Program-made: the position numbers and the translations under genes | Notes under the pieces: model-generated | The model's database searches: none | Seen by the model: the letters and a program-made list of their open reading frames with translations, nothing else | Told to the model about the DNA's origin: nothing | In this document: piece after piece, positions 5,028-15,696 of the stretch | Position numbering within the stretch: position 1 is the first letter of the stretch | Layout: each line of letters starts with the position of its first letter | Assembly (NCBI GenBank): GCA_016871615.1 | Contig: VHCX01000028.1 | Coordinates: 1 to 42,488, forward strand | DNA length: 42,488 bases | Source: Verrucomicrobiota bacterium | Lineage (GTDB): Bacteria > Verrucomicrobiota > Verrucomicrobiia > Limisphaerales > UBA9464 | Direction: 5' to 3'

Positions 5028-6165
5028 CCGGGCGGCCCGGATCCTCTGGGCGGGCGAGGCGGCGGCGGCGATCGGGGGAGGCGACTCCGGTCCTCCCTCC
5101 TACTGGAGACGGGTGGCGGGCGAGGCCTTCCGCCCGGCCATGAACCTGGGAGGGCGGCCGGGATGGATCGTGGACGGGAACTTCGGCTGCCCGATCACCG
5201 TGCACGACCGCCGGGGCAACGACTCCTACCCCGTGTCGCTGCTGACCCAGTACCTCGACTACCCCCGCGAGGAACTGGGATTGCTGCCCGGGGCGACGGC
5301 ACGCATGGCCGCGCGGGTCGGCCTCGTGGGCCTGGACCTCATCCTGCGGATCGCGCGGGCCGATCGCACTGTGCAGTGGAACAGTTGGATGTTCTCGACC
5401 AATCCGGTGCCCGTGGGCCTGGCGGAGTCGGCCGAGGCGGTCACCCGGGCGCTGGTCCAAGGGTTTCCCGACCATGCCGTGGTCCTGCGCAATGTCGACG
5501 AGGTCGGGGCACCGGGGCTGGCGGCAAGGCTGGCGCGCTCCAGCCATCGCCTCCTCACTGCCCGCATCGTCCACCACTTCGACGCCCGGGACGGGGAATT
5601 TCGCCCGACGTCCACGCTCCGGCGCGACCAGAAGGAGCTCGCCCGGGACGACGGCTACCGCTGGGTGGGACCTTGGGACATCGAGGCGGCGGACGCCGGC
5701 CGCATCGCCGAACTGTACCGCCGGCTCTACCTCGAGAAGCACTCCCGGCTCAATCCCCAGTATGACGAGCCCTTCGTCCGCGCGGCCATCCGCGACCACT
5801 GGCTGGAGTTCCACGGGCTTCGTGACCGGAAGGGGCGCCTGGCCGGGGTGTTCGGTTTCTTCAGTCTCGACGACCGGGTCACGACCGTGCCGTTCATCGG
5901 ATACGACACCTCGCTGCCGGCGGAGTCGGGGATGTACCGGCGACTCTTCCTCGGAATCCACCGGGAGGTGGGCCGGCGACGCCAGTTGCTCAACTACAGC
6001 TCGGGCGCGGGCGAGTTCAAGCGGCGCCGGGGGTCGATCCCGACGGTGGAATACAACGCGGTGTACGACCGTCACCTGCCACCGGGGCGCCAGATGGCCT
6101 TCCGGACCGCGGGACTCCTCCTGAACCGCCTGGTCAGGCCGTGGATGGAGCGCAGCGGGCTATGA
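4993..6165 (+). CDS. GNAT/FemAB-like acyltransferase-fold protein linked to btaA
   Basis: About 390 residues if the ATG at 4993 is used, which lies inside btaA; ATG 5141 is a shorter possibility. The N-terminal half has the pattern GWIVDGNFGCPITVHDRRG and a helical block. The C-terminal half (from about residue 215) reads as a GNAT-like fold: IEAADAGRIAELYRRLYLEKHS, then FHGLRDRKGRLAGVFGFF and a late LLNYSSGAGEFKRRRG. The last block resembles the substrate-binding strand seen in large acetyltransferase-like proteins. The overlap with btaA implies translational coupling and a shared pathway. A role in N-acylating the amino group of a homoserine lipid would parallel OlsB-type enzymes, but this is a hypothesis. 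Confidence 0.6.
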   Translation: MAASTSLGSPPDRAARILWAGEAAAAIGGGDSGPPSYWRRVAGEAFRPAMNLGGRPGWIVDGNFGCPITVHDRRGNDSYPVSLLTQYLDYPREELGLLPGATARMAARVGLVGLDLILRIARADRTVQWNSWMFSTNPVPVGLAESAEAVTRALVQGFPDHAVVLRNVDEVGAPGLAARLARSSHRLLTARIVHHFDARDGEFRPTSTLRRDQKELARDDGYRWVGPWDIEAADAGRIAELYRRLYLEKHSRLNPQYDEPFVRAAIRDHWLEFHGLRDRKGRLAGVFGFFSLDDRVTTVPFIGYDTSLPAESGMYRRLFLGIHREVGRRRQLLNYSSGAGEFKRRRGSIPTVEYNAVYDRHLPPGRQMAFRTAGLLLNRLVRPWMERSGL

Positions 6166-6251
6166 GGCCGCGCCCGAGGGACATCAAACGTCACCGTCCT
6201 GTTGCCGTCCCGACATCCCCGCGTGACGGAAATCCACAATCTTCGGCACAG

Positions 6252-7094
6252 ATGGAGCTGGATTCATCCCTGCTGCTGCACGAGGAGCGTCTGGAGACGG
6301 CCGCGGAGTGGTCCTTTCCGGCCCCGGGCTGGACGTTCGCCTGGTTGCTTTCCGGTGACGGTTACCTGATGGGCTGCAACCCGGCGCGGGCGATGGGTGC
6401 CGGCGCAGTCGCCGTCCATGGCGGAGGCATCCGCCTCACCCTGCGGGCCAGCCGCCTGGGACCAGTGCGGTTCCGCTGGTTCCGCCTGGAGCCGTCGGCC
6501 CTCTTCGGGGTGTTCACCCTGTTCGAGCGCCGGAGGATCGACCATCCGGAGGACTCCGAACCGCCCCTGCCCTGGGTGCTGGAAGGCGGCACCCCGGCCG
6601 CGCGGCGGTTCGCCGGCGTCGAGCCCTCCCGGGGCGCCAGCGCCCTCGAGCAGCGTGCGCACCTCCTGGAACTGGTGTCGGTGGTGCTGTCGCCACCCCC
6701 GTTCACGTCGGGCATCCCGGTCGGTTCCCCACGGGACGCGGGCGACCGGCTTGAGGAACTGCTGCACCGAATCACCGACTCGGAGCTGATGACCCTTCCG
6801 GTCGAGGAACTGGCCCGTCGCTGCCGTTGCGAGCCGCGCCGGTTGCTTTCGATCTACCGGGAGCGCTTCGGGGAAAGCCTTCCGGGCCAACAGCGGGAGT
6901 GGCGGCGGCTGAGGGCCTGCGCGCTCCTGGCACAGCCGGGAACCGACATCACCACGGTCGCCCGGGCCTGCGGGTACGACGGGGTGGATGCCTTCCGCGC
7001 CTGGTTCCGGCGGGAGTTCGGCATGGCCCCGTCGCAGTGGCGGGAACGGGGCCAGGCAAACGCCACAGGTGTCGATTCCAGGGCGATCCGGTAA
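6252..7094 (+). CDS. AraC-family transcriptional regulator
   Basis: 280 residues from ATG 6252. An ATG at 6162 overlaps the previous stop (ATGA) and would add 30 residues, but those look non-coding. The N-terminal half resembles a small cupin-like sensor, opening with 'LETAAEWSFPAPGWTFAWLL'. The C-terminal third carries the two helix-turn-helix motifs of AraC proteins: LPVEELARRCRCEPRRLLS followed by ITTVARACGYDGVDAFRAWF and the closing FGMAPSQWRE. It directly precedes the lipoprotein-exbB-exbD-receptor operon on the same strand, with a palindrome in the gap, so it probably controls that operon. The inducer is unknown. Confidence 0.8.
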   Translation: MELDSSLLLHEERLETAAEWSFPAPGWTFAWLLSGDGYLMGCNPARAMGAGAVAVHGGGIRLTLRASRLGPVRFRWFRLEPSALFGVFTLFERRRIDHPEDSEPPLPWVLEGGTPAARRFAGVEPSRGASALEQRAHLLELVSVVLSPPPFTSGIPVGSPRDAGDRLEELLHRITDSELMTLPVEELARRCRCEPRRLLSIYRERFGESLPGQQREWRRLRACALLAQPGTDITTVARACGYDGVDAFRAWFRREFGMAPSQWRERGQANATGVDSRAIR

Positions 7095-7174: not shown

Positions 7175-7510
7175 ATGAACGCTTCGATCCGTCGGGTCAC
7201 CCTTCTCGCCGCCGCCTGCGCCGCCGCCGCCTGGGTCGCCGGGTGCGCCTCCTCCTCCGCCAGACTCAACCAGGTCTCGCTGGGCATGTCCCGCGAGGAG
7301 GTGGTCAAGACCCTCGGCCGCCCGCATGCCGTCTCGGCCCAGGGCGAGGTGGAGTTCCTGACCTACAACCTGATCAACAAGGGCGTGGGTGACATGAAGG
7401 AGTTCGTGGTGCGCCTGCAGAAGGGCTCGGTCGAGTCCTTCGGGGAGCGGGTGAACTTCGGATCCAGCCTCTTCGGCACGAATGCGCCGGCCGGGGCGAC
7501 GGCGAAGTGA
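7175..7510 (+). CDS. SmpA/OmlA (BamE)-like small lipoprotein
   Basis: This 111-residue protein has a lipoprotein signal: basic start, Ala-rich core and lipobox VAGC with the acylated Cys at residue 24. The mature part carries the SmpA/OmlA signature VSLGMSREEVVKTLGRP (about 34-50), then GEVEFLTYNL. BamE in the beta-barrel assembly machine has this small fold, but many unrelated lipoproteins share it. It is the first gene of the exbB-exbD-receptor operon, 43 bases before exbB. It may help assemble or gate the receptor encoded downstream; that role is inferred from position. A GGAG-type ribosome site lies about 10 bases upstream of the ATG. Confidence 0.75.
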   Translation: MNASIRRVTLLAAACAAAAWVAGCASSSARLNQVSLGMSREEVVKTLGRPHAVSAQGEVEFLTYNLINKGVGDMKEFVVRLQKGSVESFGERVNFGSSLFGTNAPAGATAK

Positions 7511-7553: not shown

Positions 7554-8342
7554 ATGGACCCCTTCCAACCCCTCCTCGCCAACGCCCTGACCTTCGCCTT
7601 CGAGAAGGCGACCATCGAGGGCAAGATCACCATCTCGGCCCTGGTCATCGTGTCGATGATCTCCTGGTCGGTGATCATCACCAAGGGCCGCCAGATCCTG
7701 AAGGCCCGTGCCGCAACCAAGCGGTTCCTCGCCGCCTTCCGCGAGATCGAGGACCCGATGCAGCTCTTCCGGGAGAAGCGCGAGTTCCCCGGCGCGCCGG
7801 CCTACGAGGTGTACGCGATGGGATGTGGCGAACTCGAGTATCACCTCGAGAACAACCCGGTGACGGTCAAAGGCCAGAAACGCATCAGCCTCGAGTCGTT
7901 CCAGTCGGTGCAGGTGGCCCTGGAGCGGGGTGTCAGCGCCGAGGCCCTCTCGCTCGAGAAGGGCATGATCATCCTCACCACGGCGGTGGCCGGCGGGCCC
8001 TTCATCGGCCTGCTGGGCACGGTGTGGGGCGTCATGGAGACCTTCTCGGGCATCGCCATGGCGGCCAGCGCCAGCCTCACGGCCATGGCGCCGGGCGTCG
8101 CCGGCGCGCTCATCGCCACGGTCGTCGGCCTCTTCGTGGCCATCCCCGCGATGTTCGCCTACAACCTGATGATCACCTCCATCCGCGGGATCACCCAGGA
8201 ACTGGACAACTTCAACTCGGAGATCATGACCGATCTCGAGCACCGCTACGTCGACAACCGCGCCCTCGCCGACGAGATCGCCGACGCCCTGCGCAACCTC
8301 AACCTCGGCCAGGCGCCCCAGGGCCCGGCCACCCGGCCATGA
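7554..8342 (+). CDS. exbB: ExbB/MotA/TolQ proton-channel protein
   Basis: 262 residues with the three-helix layout of ExbB: helix 1 near 24-43, a long cytoplasmic stretch, then helices 2 and 3 near 135-165 and 175-205. The core motif GGPFIGLLGTVWGVMETF leads into helix 2, and 'APGVAGALIATVVGLFVAIP' forms helix 3. ExbB forms the pentameric inner-membrane motor that, with ExbD, uses the proton gradient to energise TonB. The stop overlaps the exbD start (ATGA at 8339-8342), so the two are coupled. The partner here is the TonB/receptor fusion at 8801 rather than a separate TonB. Confidence 0.92.
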   Translation: MDPFQPLLANALTFAFEKATIEGKITISALVIVSMISWSVIITKGRQILKARAATKRFLAAFREIEDPMQLFREKREFPGAPAYEVYAMGCGELEYHLENNPVTVKGQKRISLESFQSVQVALERGVSAEALSLEKGMIILTTAVAGGPFIGLLGTVWGVMETFSGIAMAASASLTAMAPGVAGALIATVVGLFVAIPAMFAYNLMITSIRGITQELDNFNSEIMTDLEHRYVDNRALADEIADALRNLNLGQAPQGPATRP

Positions 8343-8791
8343 GTTCCGCCTCCGCCGGACGCCGCGGGCGCAAGAAGTACTCCGCATCCCACCATCATGC
8401 GATGGGTGAGCTGAACATCACCCCGCTCCTGGACCTCGCCTTCGTGCTGCTGGTGATCTTCATCATCACCACCGCGCCCTCGACCAACGACATCGACATC
8501 AACCTGCCCTCGGCGGCGCAGCAACCGCCGCAGAACCAGAACAAGCAGGACATCAACAACGTGACGGTCGACTCGGCGGGCAACGTGTACTTCAACGCCG
8601 AGCCCATCACCCTCGAGAAGCTCGAGGACGAGATCATCCGCTTCCGCAAGAGCAACCCCGACCTCAGCGTGGTGGTCCGGGGCGACGAGAACGTGAACTA
8701 CCAGAAGGTGGTGCAGGTGCTCGACATCCTCACCCGGGCCAACGTCACCAAGATCGGCCTCGCGACCGACACGGCCGGCGCGGCCAAATAG
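8339..8791 (+). CDS. exbD: ExbD/TolR biopolymer transport protein
   Basis: 150 residues: a basic cytoplasmic N terminus, a single membrane helix from about 30 to 45 with the essential acidic residue (NITPLLDLAFVLL, D32, equivalent to Asp25 of E. coli ExbD), then a periplasmic domain with the usual YFNAEPITLEKLED and SVVVRGDENVNYQKVVQVLD blocks. It works with ExbB as the proton-driven stator. The start was chosen at 8339 because the ATGA overlap with exbB places it there and it keeps the family N terminus. The following gene starts 10 bases later with an AGGA ribosome site overlapping this stop. Confidence 0.92.
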   Translation: MSSASAGRRGRKKYSASHHHAMGELNITPLLDLAFVLLVIFIITTAPSTNDIDINLPSAAQQPPQNQNKQDINNVTVDSAGNVYFNAEPITLEKLEDEIIRFRKSNPDLSVVVRGDENVNYQKVVQVLDILTRANVTKIGLATDTAGAAK

Positions 8792-8800
8792 GAATCCGGC

Positions 8801-11800
8801 ATGGCCCGAAACGCCAAGAAGACGAGCGACCGGTCGAGCCTCGTCATCTCGATCGTCGTCCACGCTCTGGCCCTGGGCGGCCTGGCCTACCTCGCCCACA
8901 AGGCGGGCTTCGTGCCGCAGGCGATCTACCAGATCACCGGCATCAAGCCGCCGGAAAAGCCCAAGCCCAAGCCCAAGCCGCCGGAGCCGACCCCGGACAT
9001 CCCGAAACCCAAGGCCAGCGACATCGTGGAGGAGACGGCCGCCCCACCGGCCAATGCCGCGCCGGCGACGGCCGCCCCACCCACGGCCAGCGCCGCGAGG
9101 TCCGACGCGCCCCCGGCCCAAGGCGGCGGCGCGGGCAACTTCTTCAAGGCCGAGGCCCGCAAGCCCGACGCCGCCCCGGTCCGGCCCATCCAGGGCAAGC
9201 CGGGCACGGGTGCGGGCAACCTCGCCGCCTCGAAGTCCACGGCGGCCGCCACGGCGGCCAAGTCGGCCTTCGACGAGGCCTCGACCAAGCCGAGCACGGT
9301 GGCCGCCGTGCTCGAGGAGCGGAAGAACGCCGCCACCGCCCAGGAGGCCATCAGCGCCGAGCAGATCGCCCGCACCGGCGGCGGCGACGCGGCCCAGATC
9401 ACCACCAAGATCACGGGCGTGGTGGCGACCGACAACCGCCAGATCGTCATCCGGGGGCTCAACGACCGCTACAACATCGCCACGCTCAACGGGGCCGAAT
9501 TGCCCAGCGCGGACCCACGCCGGCGCGCCCCGCAGCTCGACCTCATCCCGTCGGCGATGATCGACCGGGTGGTCGTGAGCAAGACCTTCACGCCCGACCT
9601 GCAGGGCGGGTTCGCCGGCGGCGCGGTCAACATCGTGACCAAGTCCTTCCCGGCGAAGGGATTCACCTCCGTCTCGGGCGGCGCCGGCCTCAACACGGCC
9701 GCCACGCTCAACGACCGGTTCCTCAACATCCCGGGCGGGGGCAACGATTTCTGGGCGATGGATGACGGATCCCGGGCCCTGCCGTCGCAGGCGCTCATCG
9801 ACCCGTCGATCCTCACCGAGGCCCAGCGCCCATGGCGCAACACCACCCAGCAGGCCGCCGGGGCCCAGCGGCGGGAGTTGGCCGAAAAATACGACGCGGC
9901 GCTGCGCTCCTTCGGCAACACCACCTTCGCCCCGTCCACGGACCAGCCCGGGCCGAACTCGAACTTCTCGGTCTCCAGCGGCGACACGACGTGGCTCTTC
10001 GGGCGACGCTTCGGCTGGTTCGGGACCTTCAACCACGACCGGCAATTCCAGTTCTACGAGGGCGCCTTCCGCGGACGCTATGCCTACGGCACCGACCCGG
10101 TGGACGGCGGACCACTGTTCCGGACCTCCGAGTTCCAGCGCGACCAGGCCATCCAGACGGTGGGCTGGGGCGCGGTGGCCAGCACGGCCATCGAGCTCAT
10201 GCCGGGCCACGAGCTGTCCTTCAGCTTCCTCAACAACCAGAGCGCCCAGCACTACCTGACCGAGGAGACCGGCCGGACCATCAACCAGTTCGACCCGGGG
10301 AACCCGGAACGCACCCGGATCGACCAGCTCACCTACCGCGAACGTTTCCTGCGGAATTTCCAATTCAAGGGCCGTCATGAGTTCCGGGAGGTGGGGGCGG
10401 CCCAGCTCGACTGGAGCTTCTCGAGTTCGGGCACGGGCGAGAACTCACCGGACGAGCGGATCTTCCCGATGATCCTCTTCCCGGCGGGCAACGGGCTGAC
10501 CAACATCATCGCCCAATCAGCCGAACTGCCGAACATCAACCAGCCGTCGCGCTTCTTCCGCGACTCGCAGGACAAGAGCTGGAACTTCCGCAGCGACCTG
10601 ACCATCCCCTTCACCCCGGGCAACGGGCTCGAGAGCTCGATCAAGATCGGCGGCAACGTGCTCGAATCCGAGCGCCGCCTGCGCGAGCAGCGCTTCGAGT
10701 ACGAGATCAACCAGACCTCCGGCGCCAACCAGGCCGATGTCTCGGCCTACGCCAATTCAATCCTCAACTTCCAGGGCCGCCAGTTCGTCACCAATTTCAC
10801 CGGGTCCGGATCGAACGCCCGGACGGCGTACTTCTTCCCCAACGCGACCTTCCTGCGCTCCGGCCTGCCCTTCGACGGCTACGGCTACGACGGCACCCAG
10901 AGCATCCCGGCGGTGTACGCCATGGCCGACCTCTTCGTGATGCCGAAGTTCCGGCTGGTCGGTGGTGCGCGCGTCGAGGAGACGGACCTGAAGGCCGAGG
11001 TGCTGCCGCGCAGCCGCATCCTGGGAGCCTCGCCCAGCGGACGGATCGCCACGACCGACGTGCTCCCCGCGGTCGGGGGCGTCTTCCCGCTGACCAGCAA
11101 CCTGAACCTGCGGCTCAATTGGTCGCAGACCATCGCGCGGCCAACCTACCGCGAGTTCGCGCCCTTCGAGTACTTCGACACCTTCGACGGCCTCGCGTAC
11201 CGGGGCAACGCGGACCTCAAGCGCTCCGCGATCGAGAACTTCGACGCGCGGATGGAATGGTTCCCCCGGCCCGGGGAACTCCTCTCGGTGGCGTGGTTCC
11301 GCAAGAACATCCTCAACCCCATCGAGCCCTACATCGCCGACAACGCGGCCGGCATCGTGAGCTTCACCAACAACGCCAGCGCCGTCGTCTCGGGCTTCGA
11401 ACTGGAGGCGCGCAAGAACCTCGGCGCCCTGGACCCGCTGCTCTCGGGGATCACCCTCGGCGGCAACGCGGCCTTCATCCAGTCGGAGGTCGACGTGTTC
11501 TATCCGGTCGGCAATGGCGTGGGCCTGTACAACCGGCCCCTCTTCGACCAGCCGGAGTACATCCTCAACGGCGACCTCGCCTGGGAGATCGCCCGCAGCC
11601 GCACCACCGTGTCGCTGTCCTTCGCGCGGAGCGGCCAGCGGCTGGCGGTCGACGGCGGCCAGGGCAGCCCGAACATCTACGAACAGCCCATCAACACCCT
11701 TGACCTGTTCGTGAACCAGCGCCTCGGCCGTCGGTGGCGCATGCGCTTCGGCGCGCGCAACCTGCTCGACCCGGACATCCGCCAGACGCTCATCAACGAC

Positions 11801-11896
11801 CTCGGGGCCCGCGAGGAGCGCTACGGCGACCAGTACGTCTTCCGCAGCTACCGGCGCGGCATCACCGTCAGCCTGACCGTGTCGGCCGACTTCTGA
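8801..11896 (+). CDS. Fusion: TonB-type N terminus joined to a TonB-dependent outer-membrane receptor
   Basis: The 1031-residue protein has an N-terminal helix (about 14-32) that keeps the S17-x3-H21 motif used by TonB (Ser16/His20 in E. coli) to couple to ExbB/ExbD. A Pro/Lys segment follows (49-71, KPPEKPKPKPKPPEP), then an Ala/Pro-rich linker to about 160. No TonB C-terminal domain follows. Instead a receptor plug begins near 165: VLEERKNAATAQEAISAEQ, VIRGLNDRYNIATLNGAELP and FTPDLQGGFAGGAVNIVTK. The rest is a large beta-barrel ending in Phe (ITVSLTVSADF), as outer-membrane barrels do. No good signal-peptidase site is seen. It could therefore anchor in the inner membrane and cross the periplasm. 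It closes an operon with exbB/exbD. The substrate is unknown. Confidence 0.88.
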   Translation: MARNAKKTSDRSSLVISIVVHALALGGLAYLAHKAGFVPQAIYQITGIKPPEKPKPKPKPPEPTPDIPKPKASDIVEETAAPPANAAPATAAPPTASAARSDAPPAQGGGAGNFFKAEARKPDAAPVRPIQGKPGTGAGNLAASKSTAAATAAKSAFDEASTKPSTVAAVLEERKNAATAQEAISAEQIARTGGGDAAQITTKITGVVATDNRQIVIRGLNDRYNIATLNGAELPSADPRRRAPQLDLIPSAMIDRVVVSKTFTPDLQGGFAGGAVNIVTKSFPAKGFTSVSGGAGLNTAATLNDRFLNIPGGGNDFWAMDDGSRALPSQALIDPSILTEAQRPWRNTTQQAAGAQRRELAEKYDAALRSFGNTTFAPSTDQPGPNSNFSVSSGDTTWLFGRRFGWFGTFNHDRQFQFYEGAFRGRYAYGTDPVDGGPLFRTSEFQRDQAIQTVGWGAVASTAIELMPGHELSFSFLNNQSAQHYLTEETGRTINQFDPGNPERTRIDQLTYRERFLRNFQFKGRHEFREVGAAQLDWSFSSSGTGENSPDERIFPMILFPAGNGLTNIIAQSAELPNINQPSRFFRDSQDKSWNFRSDLTIPFTPGNGLESSIKIGGNVLESERRLREQRFEYEINQTSGANQADVSAYANSILNFQGRQFVTNFTGSGSNARTAYFFPNATFLRSGLPFDGYGYDGTQSIPAVYAMADLFVMPKFRLVGGARVEETDLKAEVLPRSRILGASPSGRIATTDVLPAVGGVFPLTSNLNLRLNWSQTIARPTYREFAPFEYFDTFDGLAYRGNADLKRSAIENFDARMEWFPRPGELLSVAWFRKNILNPIEPYIADNAAGIVSFTNNASAVVSGFELEARKNLGALDPLLSGITLGGNAAFIQSEVDVFYPVGNGVGLYNRPLFDQPEYILNGDLAWEIARSRTTVSLSFARSGQRLAVDGGQGSPNIYEQPINTLDLFVNQRLGRRWRMRFGARNLLDPDIRQTLINDLGAREERYGDQYVFRSYRRGITVSLTVSADF

Positions 11897-13276: not shown

Positions 13277-13280
<4 letters not shown>
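11907..13280 (-). CDS. Exported PHP-domain metallohydrolase
   Basis: 457 residues from a GTG at 13280 that overlaps the upstream gene's TGA (GTGA), so the pair is translationally coupled. A short hydrophobic leader ends near an Ala-rich site at about 20-22. PHP-type metal motifs follow: CIFHAHAGDSSHTGG (H73, H75), VVFLSDH (D105, H106), a later GMAFLSHIEERPDHP block and AANDCHH. The C-terminal 100 residues form an Ig-like tail (RVELWLALDGE...). PHP proteins hydrolyse phosphoesters or related bonds using two or three metals. The secreted form with a 'CehA/McbA-like' partner suggests an extracytoplasmic substrate, not identified. The gene converges with the receptor gene, 10 bases apart. Confidence 0.75.
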
Positions 13281-15556
<2,276 letters not shown>

Positions 15557-15696
15557 GGGCGGTGCGCGGAGATCGGGAAGATGAGGCCGACGATGCCGCA
15601 CGGTCGCAGGCCGAGGCAAGCTGCCGGAAGGGGACGAATGCAGCGCCGGGGGGCTTGCGCGGGAACCGGCGGGACCCCAATGATCGATCCAATCCC

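Follow-up and report, generated by a model that had tools for sequence, protein, structure and literature searches.

Can a receptor of the outer membrane and the transducer that energizes it be one and the same polypeptide? This question is raised by a gene in the window, that is, the whole stretch of 42,488 nucleotides analysed here (contig VHCX01000028.1, assembly GCA_016871615.1, a Verrucomicrobiota bacterium of the order Limisphaerales), which comes from a 3.8 Mb draft genome in 183 contigs. Positions 8801–11896 of the forward strand hold an unbroken frame of 1031 residues, in which a TonB/TolA-type anchor and a Pro/Lys linker are followed by a complete TonB-dependent receptor. From the comparisons of sequences described below, we consider it likely that this fusion represents a Ton system with transducer and receptor covalently joined, in which the motor would pull the plug through a permanent tether. 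It is also fairly likely that a single chain combines an inner-membrane anchor, a gated outer-membrane barrel and a permanent motor of its own, and that the barrels have served as exchangeable cartridges on one motor-anchor cassette.

A receptor gene with a transducer anchor

The N-terminal part of the fusion possesses a hydrophobic helix (residues ~13–33; 8837–8899, + strand), which carries Ser17 and His21. It is followed by a Pro/Lys stretch (residues ~49–71 of the translation) and then by low-complexity sequence, which belong to a Pro-rich, putative periplasmic linker of residues 34–164 (8900–9292, +; limits from the alignments). The receptor half comprises a Plug domain (residues 175–275; 9323–9625, +; Pfam PF07715, E 1.5e-9) and a β-barrel (residues ~286–1031; 9656–11893, +), in which Pfam places the TonB_dep_Rec domain (PF00593) at residues 579–988 with an E value of 6.1e-27; the last residue is Phe. 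No match to a TonB C-terminal domain (TonB_C, TonB_2 or TolA) was found in the fusion by Pfam at E values up to 1. AlphaFold2 modelled residues 150–1031 in a plug-barrel fold (strands uncounted), with a mean predicted local distance difference test score (pLDDT) of 75.3 and a predicted template modelling score of 0.77. Structural similarity search using Foldseek revealed that this model most resembles FepA (PDB 1fep), with an E value of 2.9e-28, and that PfeA, Cir and other solved receptors are also among its matches. Sequence searches of the PDB gave no single chain matching both the helix and the plug.

The fusion gene lies directly downstream of genes for an ExbB/TolQ-type motor subunit (262 residues; 7554–8342, +; Pfam MotA_ExbB, E 1.8e-27) and an ExbD/TolR-type motor subunit (150 residues; 8339–8791, +; Pfam E 1.6e-30). 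The stop codon of exbB and the start codon of exbD overlap in an ATGA junction, and the gap between exbD and the fusion is nine bases. For both subunits of the fusion operon, the TolQ/TolR models outscore the ExbB/ExbD ones, all of them below the curated cut-offs. In total, six barrel receptors were found in the genome, one of which is the fusion; no TonB-type anchor was seen in the N termini of the other five. The first-pass annotation, which was made without database searches, had described a TonB-type helix with S17 and H21, a Pro/Lys spacer at residues 49–71, a receptor ending in Phe, a missing TonB C-terminal domain, a linker of roughly 130 residues and exbB and exbD in the same operon. 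Translation and Pfam bear this description out in its coordinates and residue numbers, and the linker measures 120–149 residues over 37 fused copies with a single yardstick.

The same annotation had named three findings that would undo its reading. Two of them, absence of the fusion from related genomes and the joining of two genes by an assembly error, are disproved; the third, cleavage of the helix by signal peptidase, is taken up below. In the same genus, 18 of the 19 genomes (the window's own included) have a match, 14 of them full-length in one piece, and the fusion is broken or cut by contig ends in the remaining matching genomes. A second genus of the window's family also holds the fusion, at ~55% identity. 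The proposed search for proteins with both helix and plug was run on the order with an anchor-plus-plug profile, and 37 of 320 genomes, from 12 families, match from the helix to the plug (model position ≤3 through ≥269; families by the tool's family codes). The frame is complete and uninterrupted in 32 of the 37, and interrupted or cut by contig ends in the other five, one of which (G155) carries an internal stop. One fusion (locus L102 of genome G144) comes from an assembly that consists of just one contig of 4.73 Mb, and an assembly join was rejected on this copy and on the sharing of the fusion by related genomes. Upstream of the fused gene, exbB and exbD are found on the same strand in 38/38 gene copies read, of which 37 were confirmed by script and one (L042) by hand, with its exbD frame read from stop to stop; two of the 38 exbB genes are partial. 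Beyond the order, a class sample of 384 genomes and a phylum sample of 288 were searched; among the matches listed, no non-member of the order has helix and plug together in one match. These samples overlap, both contain the window's genome, the class sample includes members of the order, and few candidates were scored per genome.

Where defined, the ratio of nonsynonymous to synonymous substitution rates (dN/dS) does not exceed 0.35 in any part of the gene (range 0–0.35), the highest values being 0.345 (barrel, pair G014-G000) and 0.336 (helix, pair G013-G001); the ratio is saturated for the pair G017-G000, and one segment of G013-G001 gives no defined value. An artefact of assembly or gene calling, or a decaying gene, would fit the fact that the named public records with the fusion are Verrucomicrobiota metagenome bins. 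It would also fit the two interrupted copies among the 38 (L072 in G002 and L110 in G155), which are broken by a frame change or a TAG codon owing to either sequencing error or decay, and a remnant in G196 (L152, 4358–5386), where the frame departs after anchor and linker and only pieces of the barrel follow. Against the occurrence in 37 of 320 genomes, the single-contig one included, and dN/dS well under 1 in all parts, the probability of such an explanation is close to nil. One bin (G009) contains two copies of the fusion on different contigs (L020 and L006), which come from mixed strains or a true duplication.

Unfused relatives and a probable exchange of receptor parts

Which proteins were joined is suggested by unfused relatives of both halves. 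Residues ~5–116 of the fusion resemble solo TonB_2 transducers of the family, with a best identity of 41% (E 1e-13); three of these were sent to Pfam, and all three end in TonB_2. The solo transducers sit in an exbB-exbD-tonB-exbD operon in 26 of 31 loci, the other five loci being cut (two) or without one or more of these genes (three); the fused operons, as far as read, show no second exbD. For the receptor half, the relatives are unfused receptors from the order, whose N terminus looks by eye like a signal peptide. In L052, the only one tested by Pfam, a CarboxypepD_reg domain precedes the plug. Just before their plug, the unfused receptors carry a stretch that resembles a TonB box, for instance EMEEYEVTAE. 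The pattern [YF][EV]VTA is present in 19 of 33 unfused rows and in none of the 37 fused rows, and a looser acidic-aromatic box pattern in 27 of 33 unfused rows compared to, again, none of the 37.

These comparisons suggest that the solo transducer lost its C-terminal receptor-binding domain at the join, and that the receptor lost its signal peptide, its CarboxypepD_reg domain and its recognisable TonB box. If the boxes are genuine, both of the faces that normally bind each other would have been removed. The fused gene would have started from a solo exbB-exbD-tonB(TonB_2) operon, in which a receptor beginning immediately behind its TonB box took the place of the C-terminal domain, and the receptor part would have been exchanged several times after the fusion.

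Phylogenetic analysis revealed different histories for the two halves. When ExbB and ExbD are concatenated, the resulting tree places the motors of 26 fused operons on one side of a single branch (support 99/97; 100% of 200 bootstraps) and, with a midpoint root, nests them among those of 28 solo operons. This tree omitted 12 of the 38 fused operons, namely ten close relatives and G002 and G086, whose exbB is partial, as well as the solo loci L147, L150 and L155, whose ExbB is cut or gave no match; where two exbD genes occur, the better-scoring one was used. By contrast, fused and unfused receptors are mixed in the tree of plug plus barrel, with seven changes of state, six of which are forced by supported branches, and the 22 fused receptors form one group in 0% of 200 bootstrap trees. 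Its 50 receptors were taken from 59 rows by omitting three distant and six close relatives, L029 having been dropped earlier as it is without the anchor motif. One common history for the entire fused gene is not supported, since the motor tree conflicts with the receptor trees. The motors group, in contrast to the receptor parts, so that a single motor-plus-anchor cassette seems to have received different barrels over time. On the simplest account of these sequences, a fusion was founded once on a dedicated motor and its receptor part was exchanged later. The solo motor nearest to the fused group, on a branch without strong support (93/90), is that of locus L139 in genome G064, whose exbB-exbD-tonB operon is without a second exbD; it is a possible forerunner of the fused operon.

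Alternatively, receptor parts may have been fused repeatedly onto similar motors, or some of the unfused relatives may have arisen by fission. The seven changes in the receptor tree, with six of them forced, and the failure of any bootstrap tree to unite the fused receptors favour repeated fusion; whereas the grouping of the motors of all 26 sampled fused operons is most easily obtained from one origin with exchange of barrels, but the tree cannot tell gain from loss. We regard such a history as possible although doubtful, and it concerns only the history, not the mechanism of the protein. The spread over 12 families, the unrecognisable TonB box and the grouping of the motors while the barrels do not group were all missing from the first-pass annotation.

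A set of unfused relatives from Thiomicrospira, Campylobacterota and Verrucomicrobiota (L030-L036, L112 and L113) lies downstream of a longer ExbB-like gene, a shorter exbB and an exbD. This upstream cluster is possibly another dedicated motor; some of the clusters are cut at the locus end.

Probable retention of the anchor and its proposed contact with the motor

Alignment of 37 fused copies (the 38th, from G155, was left out for an internal stop) showed that His21 is kept in all of them; residue 17 is a Ser in 31, one of which is the window's copy, and an Ala in six. In the cryo-electron microscopy structure of E. coli TonB-ExbBD, the equivalent residues Ser16 and His20 contact ExbB at Trp38 and Ser34, and the anchor His is described as essential, according to excerpts of that report (PMC12215075). 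When the window's ExbB is aligned to a solved ExbB (PDB 7ajq), the Ser-x3-Trp in membrane helix 1 and the Thr and Pro positions in the subsequent helices are conserved; the window's ExbD keeps the membrane Asp. Residues 37–62 (8909–8986, +) may be the equivalent of the place where TonB and HasB bind ExbD: excerpts of a study of HasB (PMC10771500) state that its residues 46–61 bind ExbD, and that both HasB and TonB bind by strand addition. Compared to the helix and the linker, this segment has the lowest dN/dS in six of the seven defined, unsaturated pairs, over 26 codons only. Given the invariant His21, the residues for motor contact, the exbB and exbD genes upstream and the rarity of an AxA-like site (see below), the anchor is probably in use.

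An extended peptide measures ~0.3 nm per residue, and a linker of the observed length could span the periplasm if extended. The linker is otherwise loose in sequence; its residues 102–120 (9104–9160 of the window) hold a short conserved motif, DAPPAQGGGAGNFFKAEAR here, found at the same place in L097-L109 and, in the form DAPxxxGxxxFFxDTR or similar, in many of the families. A similar stretch, IGADFxFSDGAK, precedes the C-terminal domain in several solo transducers. Docking of this motif to the cell wall, to ExbD or to the plug is possible.

The helix might instead serve as a signal peptide, or the linker might be cut after export, such that the released receptor works in the ordinary manner and the N-terminal part is lost or persists as a separate stub. 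A hydrophobic N-terminal helix can indeed target a protein to the Sec pathway, other transducers are encoded in the genome, and selection on residues 1–36 is no tighter than elsewhere in the gene. On the other side, in a crude scan, one of 22 fused copies has an AxA-like motif behind its hydrophobic core, compared to 24 of 31 unfused receptors. It took 22 of the 38 fused copies and 31 of the 33 unfused rows, among which the core of the Thiomicrospira row is plainly no signal peptide. Cleavage is disfavoured, albeit by indirect evidence, because AxA-like sites are rare in the fusions, the helix shares its ancestry with the anchor of solo TonB_2 transducers, and a His is kept in its core in 37/37 copies; furthermore, exbB and exbD lie upstream of all 38 copies and are of one group, and the recognisable TonB box is lost. 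An ordinary signal peptide is made improbable by the AxA-like scan, and release of the receptor by either route appears unlikely to us.

It is also conceivable that the chain stays whole but its anchor only docks or regulates, for instance by sensing the ligand and gating the motor, while a separate TonB pulls. Separate TonB_C proteins are encoded in the genome, and idle cycling would be a problem for a permanent tether; whereas none of the 37 fused rows has a recognisable TonB box, the transducer linker and the residues for motor contact are kept, and the motors form a group of their own. We judge this arrangement very unlikely.

Several observations, besides the interrupted copies and the remnant, weigh against a covalent tether pulled by its own motor. 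The genome also encodes ordinary transducers, with three TonB_C matches, one of which is the sole TonB_2 match. The six copies with Ala at position 17 depart from the Ser-x3-His motif, and residues 1–36 show dN/dS of 0.09–0.34, above that of the plug and mostly above that of the linker. The AxA scan is crude and had no control from solo transducers, and the full-length AlphaFold2 model is poor, with a pLDDT of 43. Regarding the box, the letters VTA persist near the junction in two fused rows (f52 G210 and f62 G253), and the TonB box is a weak motif, since six of the 33 unfused rows, one of them cut, fail even the looser pattern. For these reasons, its absence is no proof against the action of a separate TonB.

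With these points weighed, the covalent tether remains the reading that we prefer. The uncleaved helix would enter the inner membrane as TonB does and lie against its own ExbB-ExbD via the face of Ser/Ala17 and His21; the Pro/Lys linker would cross the periplasm, and the barrel would be built into the outer membrane. Driven by the flow of protons, ExbB/ExbD would then pull the linker and, as linker and plug form one continuous peptide, open the plug, with no need for a TonB C-terminal domain or a TonB box to join and part. The reading of the first-pass annotation is supported. The anatomy of the fusion, its homologies, its operon, its conservation, its spread and the conflict between the trees are observed; the retention of the anchor, the order of events, and the bridging of both membranes and pulling by ExbB/ExbD that the first-pass annotation proposed are inferred.

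Known systems, consequences and neighbouring genes

A normal TonB serves several receptors. Compared to the canonical TonB-ExbB-ExbD complex and its transporters, the fusion has the same motor family, anchor motif, plug and barrel, but it is without a TonB C-terminal domain, without a recognisable TonB box and without the sharing of one TonB among receptors. The anchor half and the motor are also homologous to those of TolA-TolQ-TolR and of the Verrucomicrobiota TonB_2 solo transducers; however, the C-terminal domain of these proteins is replaced by a receptor in the fusion, and the fused operons read show no counterpart of the second exbD that the solo transducers have.

The nearest known case is HasB-HasR of Serratia marcescens haem uptake, in which a transducer is likewise dedicated to one receptor; HasB is likely bound to HasR perpetually, even without ligand (excerpts of PMC10771500). 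HasB and HasR are separate proteins with a C-terminal domain and a TonB box, whereas the fusion is one chain in which neither is recognisable; by analogy, it would be the covalent end point of such dedication. In ferredoxin uptake by Pectobacterium, FusB is a TonB homologue of one system with an unusual, direct role, yet FusB and FusA are separate proteins and FusB acts through its C-terminal domain (excerpts of PMC13253070). The vWA force transducers (Mol Biol Evol 2025, PMC12204202) are tethered to the inner membrane, linked to a motor and also present in Verrucomicrobia, but end in vWA domains rather than an outer-membrane barrel, and no receptor fusion is named in the excerpts of that paper. 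Among titles and abstract openings of the open-access literature, no description of a fused or covalent TonB-receptor protein, or of an envelope-spanning barrel, was found. All parts of the fusion are known, and their arrangement is new as far as this literature search shows.

How the Ton system opens its receptors is debated, with rotation, wrap-and-pull and plain pulling under consideration, and a bound ligand is considered to bring TonB to the TonB box (excerpts of PMC11658791). The fusion makes such old questions on Ton pulling testable, as a natural 1:1 covalent version removes the step of recruitment and fixes both ends. If it transports, exchange of TonB is dispensable and gating by the ligand must act elsewhere; a permanent tether, if true, would render both recruitment and release of TonB unnecessary for transport. 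With such a tether, the transducer could not rotate without limit relative to the receptor, which bears on the rotary and wrap-and-pull proposals. It also poses a question of cell biology, namely how one chain would be inserted into the inner membrane and assembled as an outer-membrane barrel across the cell wall. A conserved motor with exchanged barrels would moreover offer natural components from which defined uptake systems could be built in harmless laboratory strains.

The genes around the fused genes gave no hint of the cargo: ten neighbouring proteins, nine beside the fused genes of relatives and one in the window, have no family in common by Pfam, and the cargo probably differs between lineages. 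Downstream of the fusion, a large frame on the reverse strand (13277–15619, −) has no Pfam match at E 0.001. Upstream of the operon, a possibly linked AraC-type regulator (6141–7094, +; Pfam HTH_18, E 1.4e-16) is encoded; an AraC-type gene is likewise found upstream in the loci of genus g1 with enough sequence, with no match in those of g8. Between this regulator and exbB lies the gene of a small protein (7175–7510, +) with a lipoprotein-like N terminus, as judged by eye, and a BamE-like domain, the match to which (E 2e-5) is just over the Pfam cut-off. It heads the operon and is linked to the fused operons in genera g1 and g8 of the window's family (f1); BLAST gave no match to it in 17 fused loci of other families, some of which have little upstream sequence. 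A BamE-like protein could aid the assembly of a barrel that is tethered at its other end to the inner membrane.

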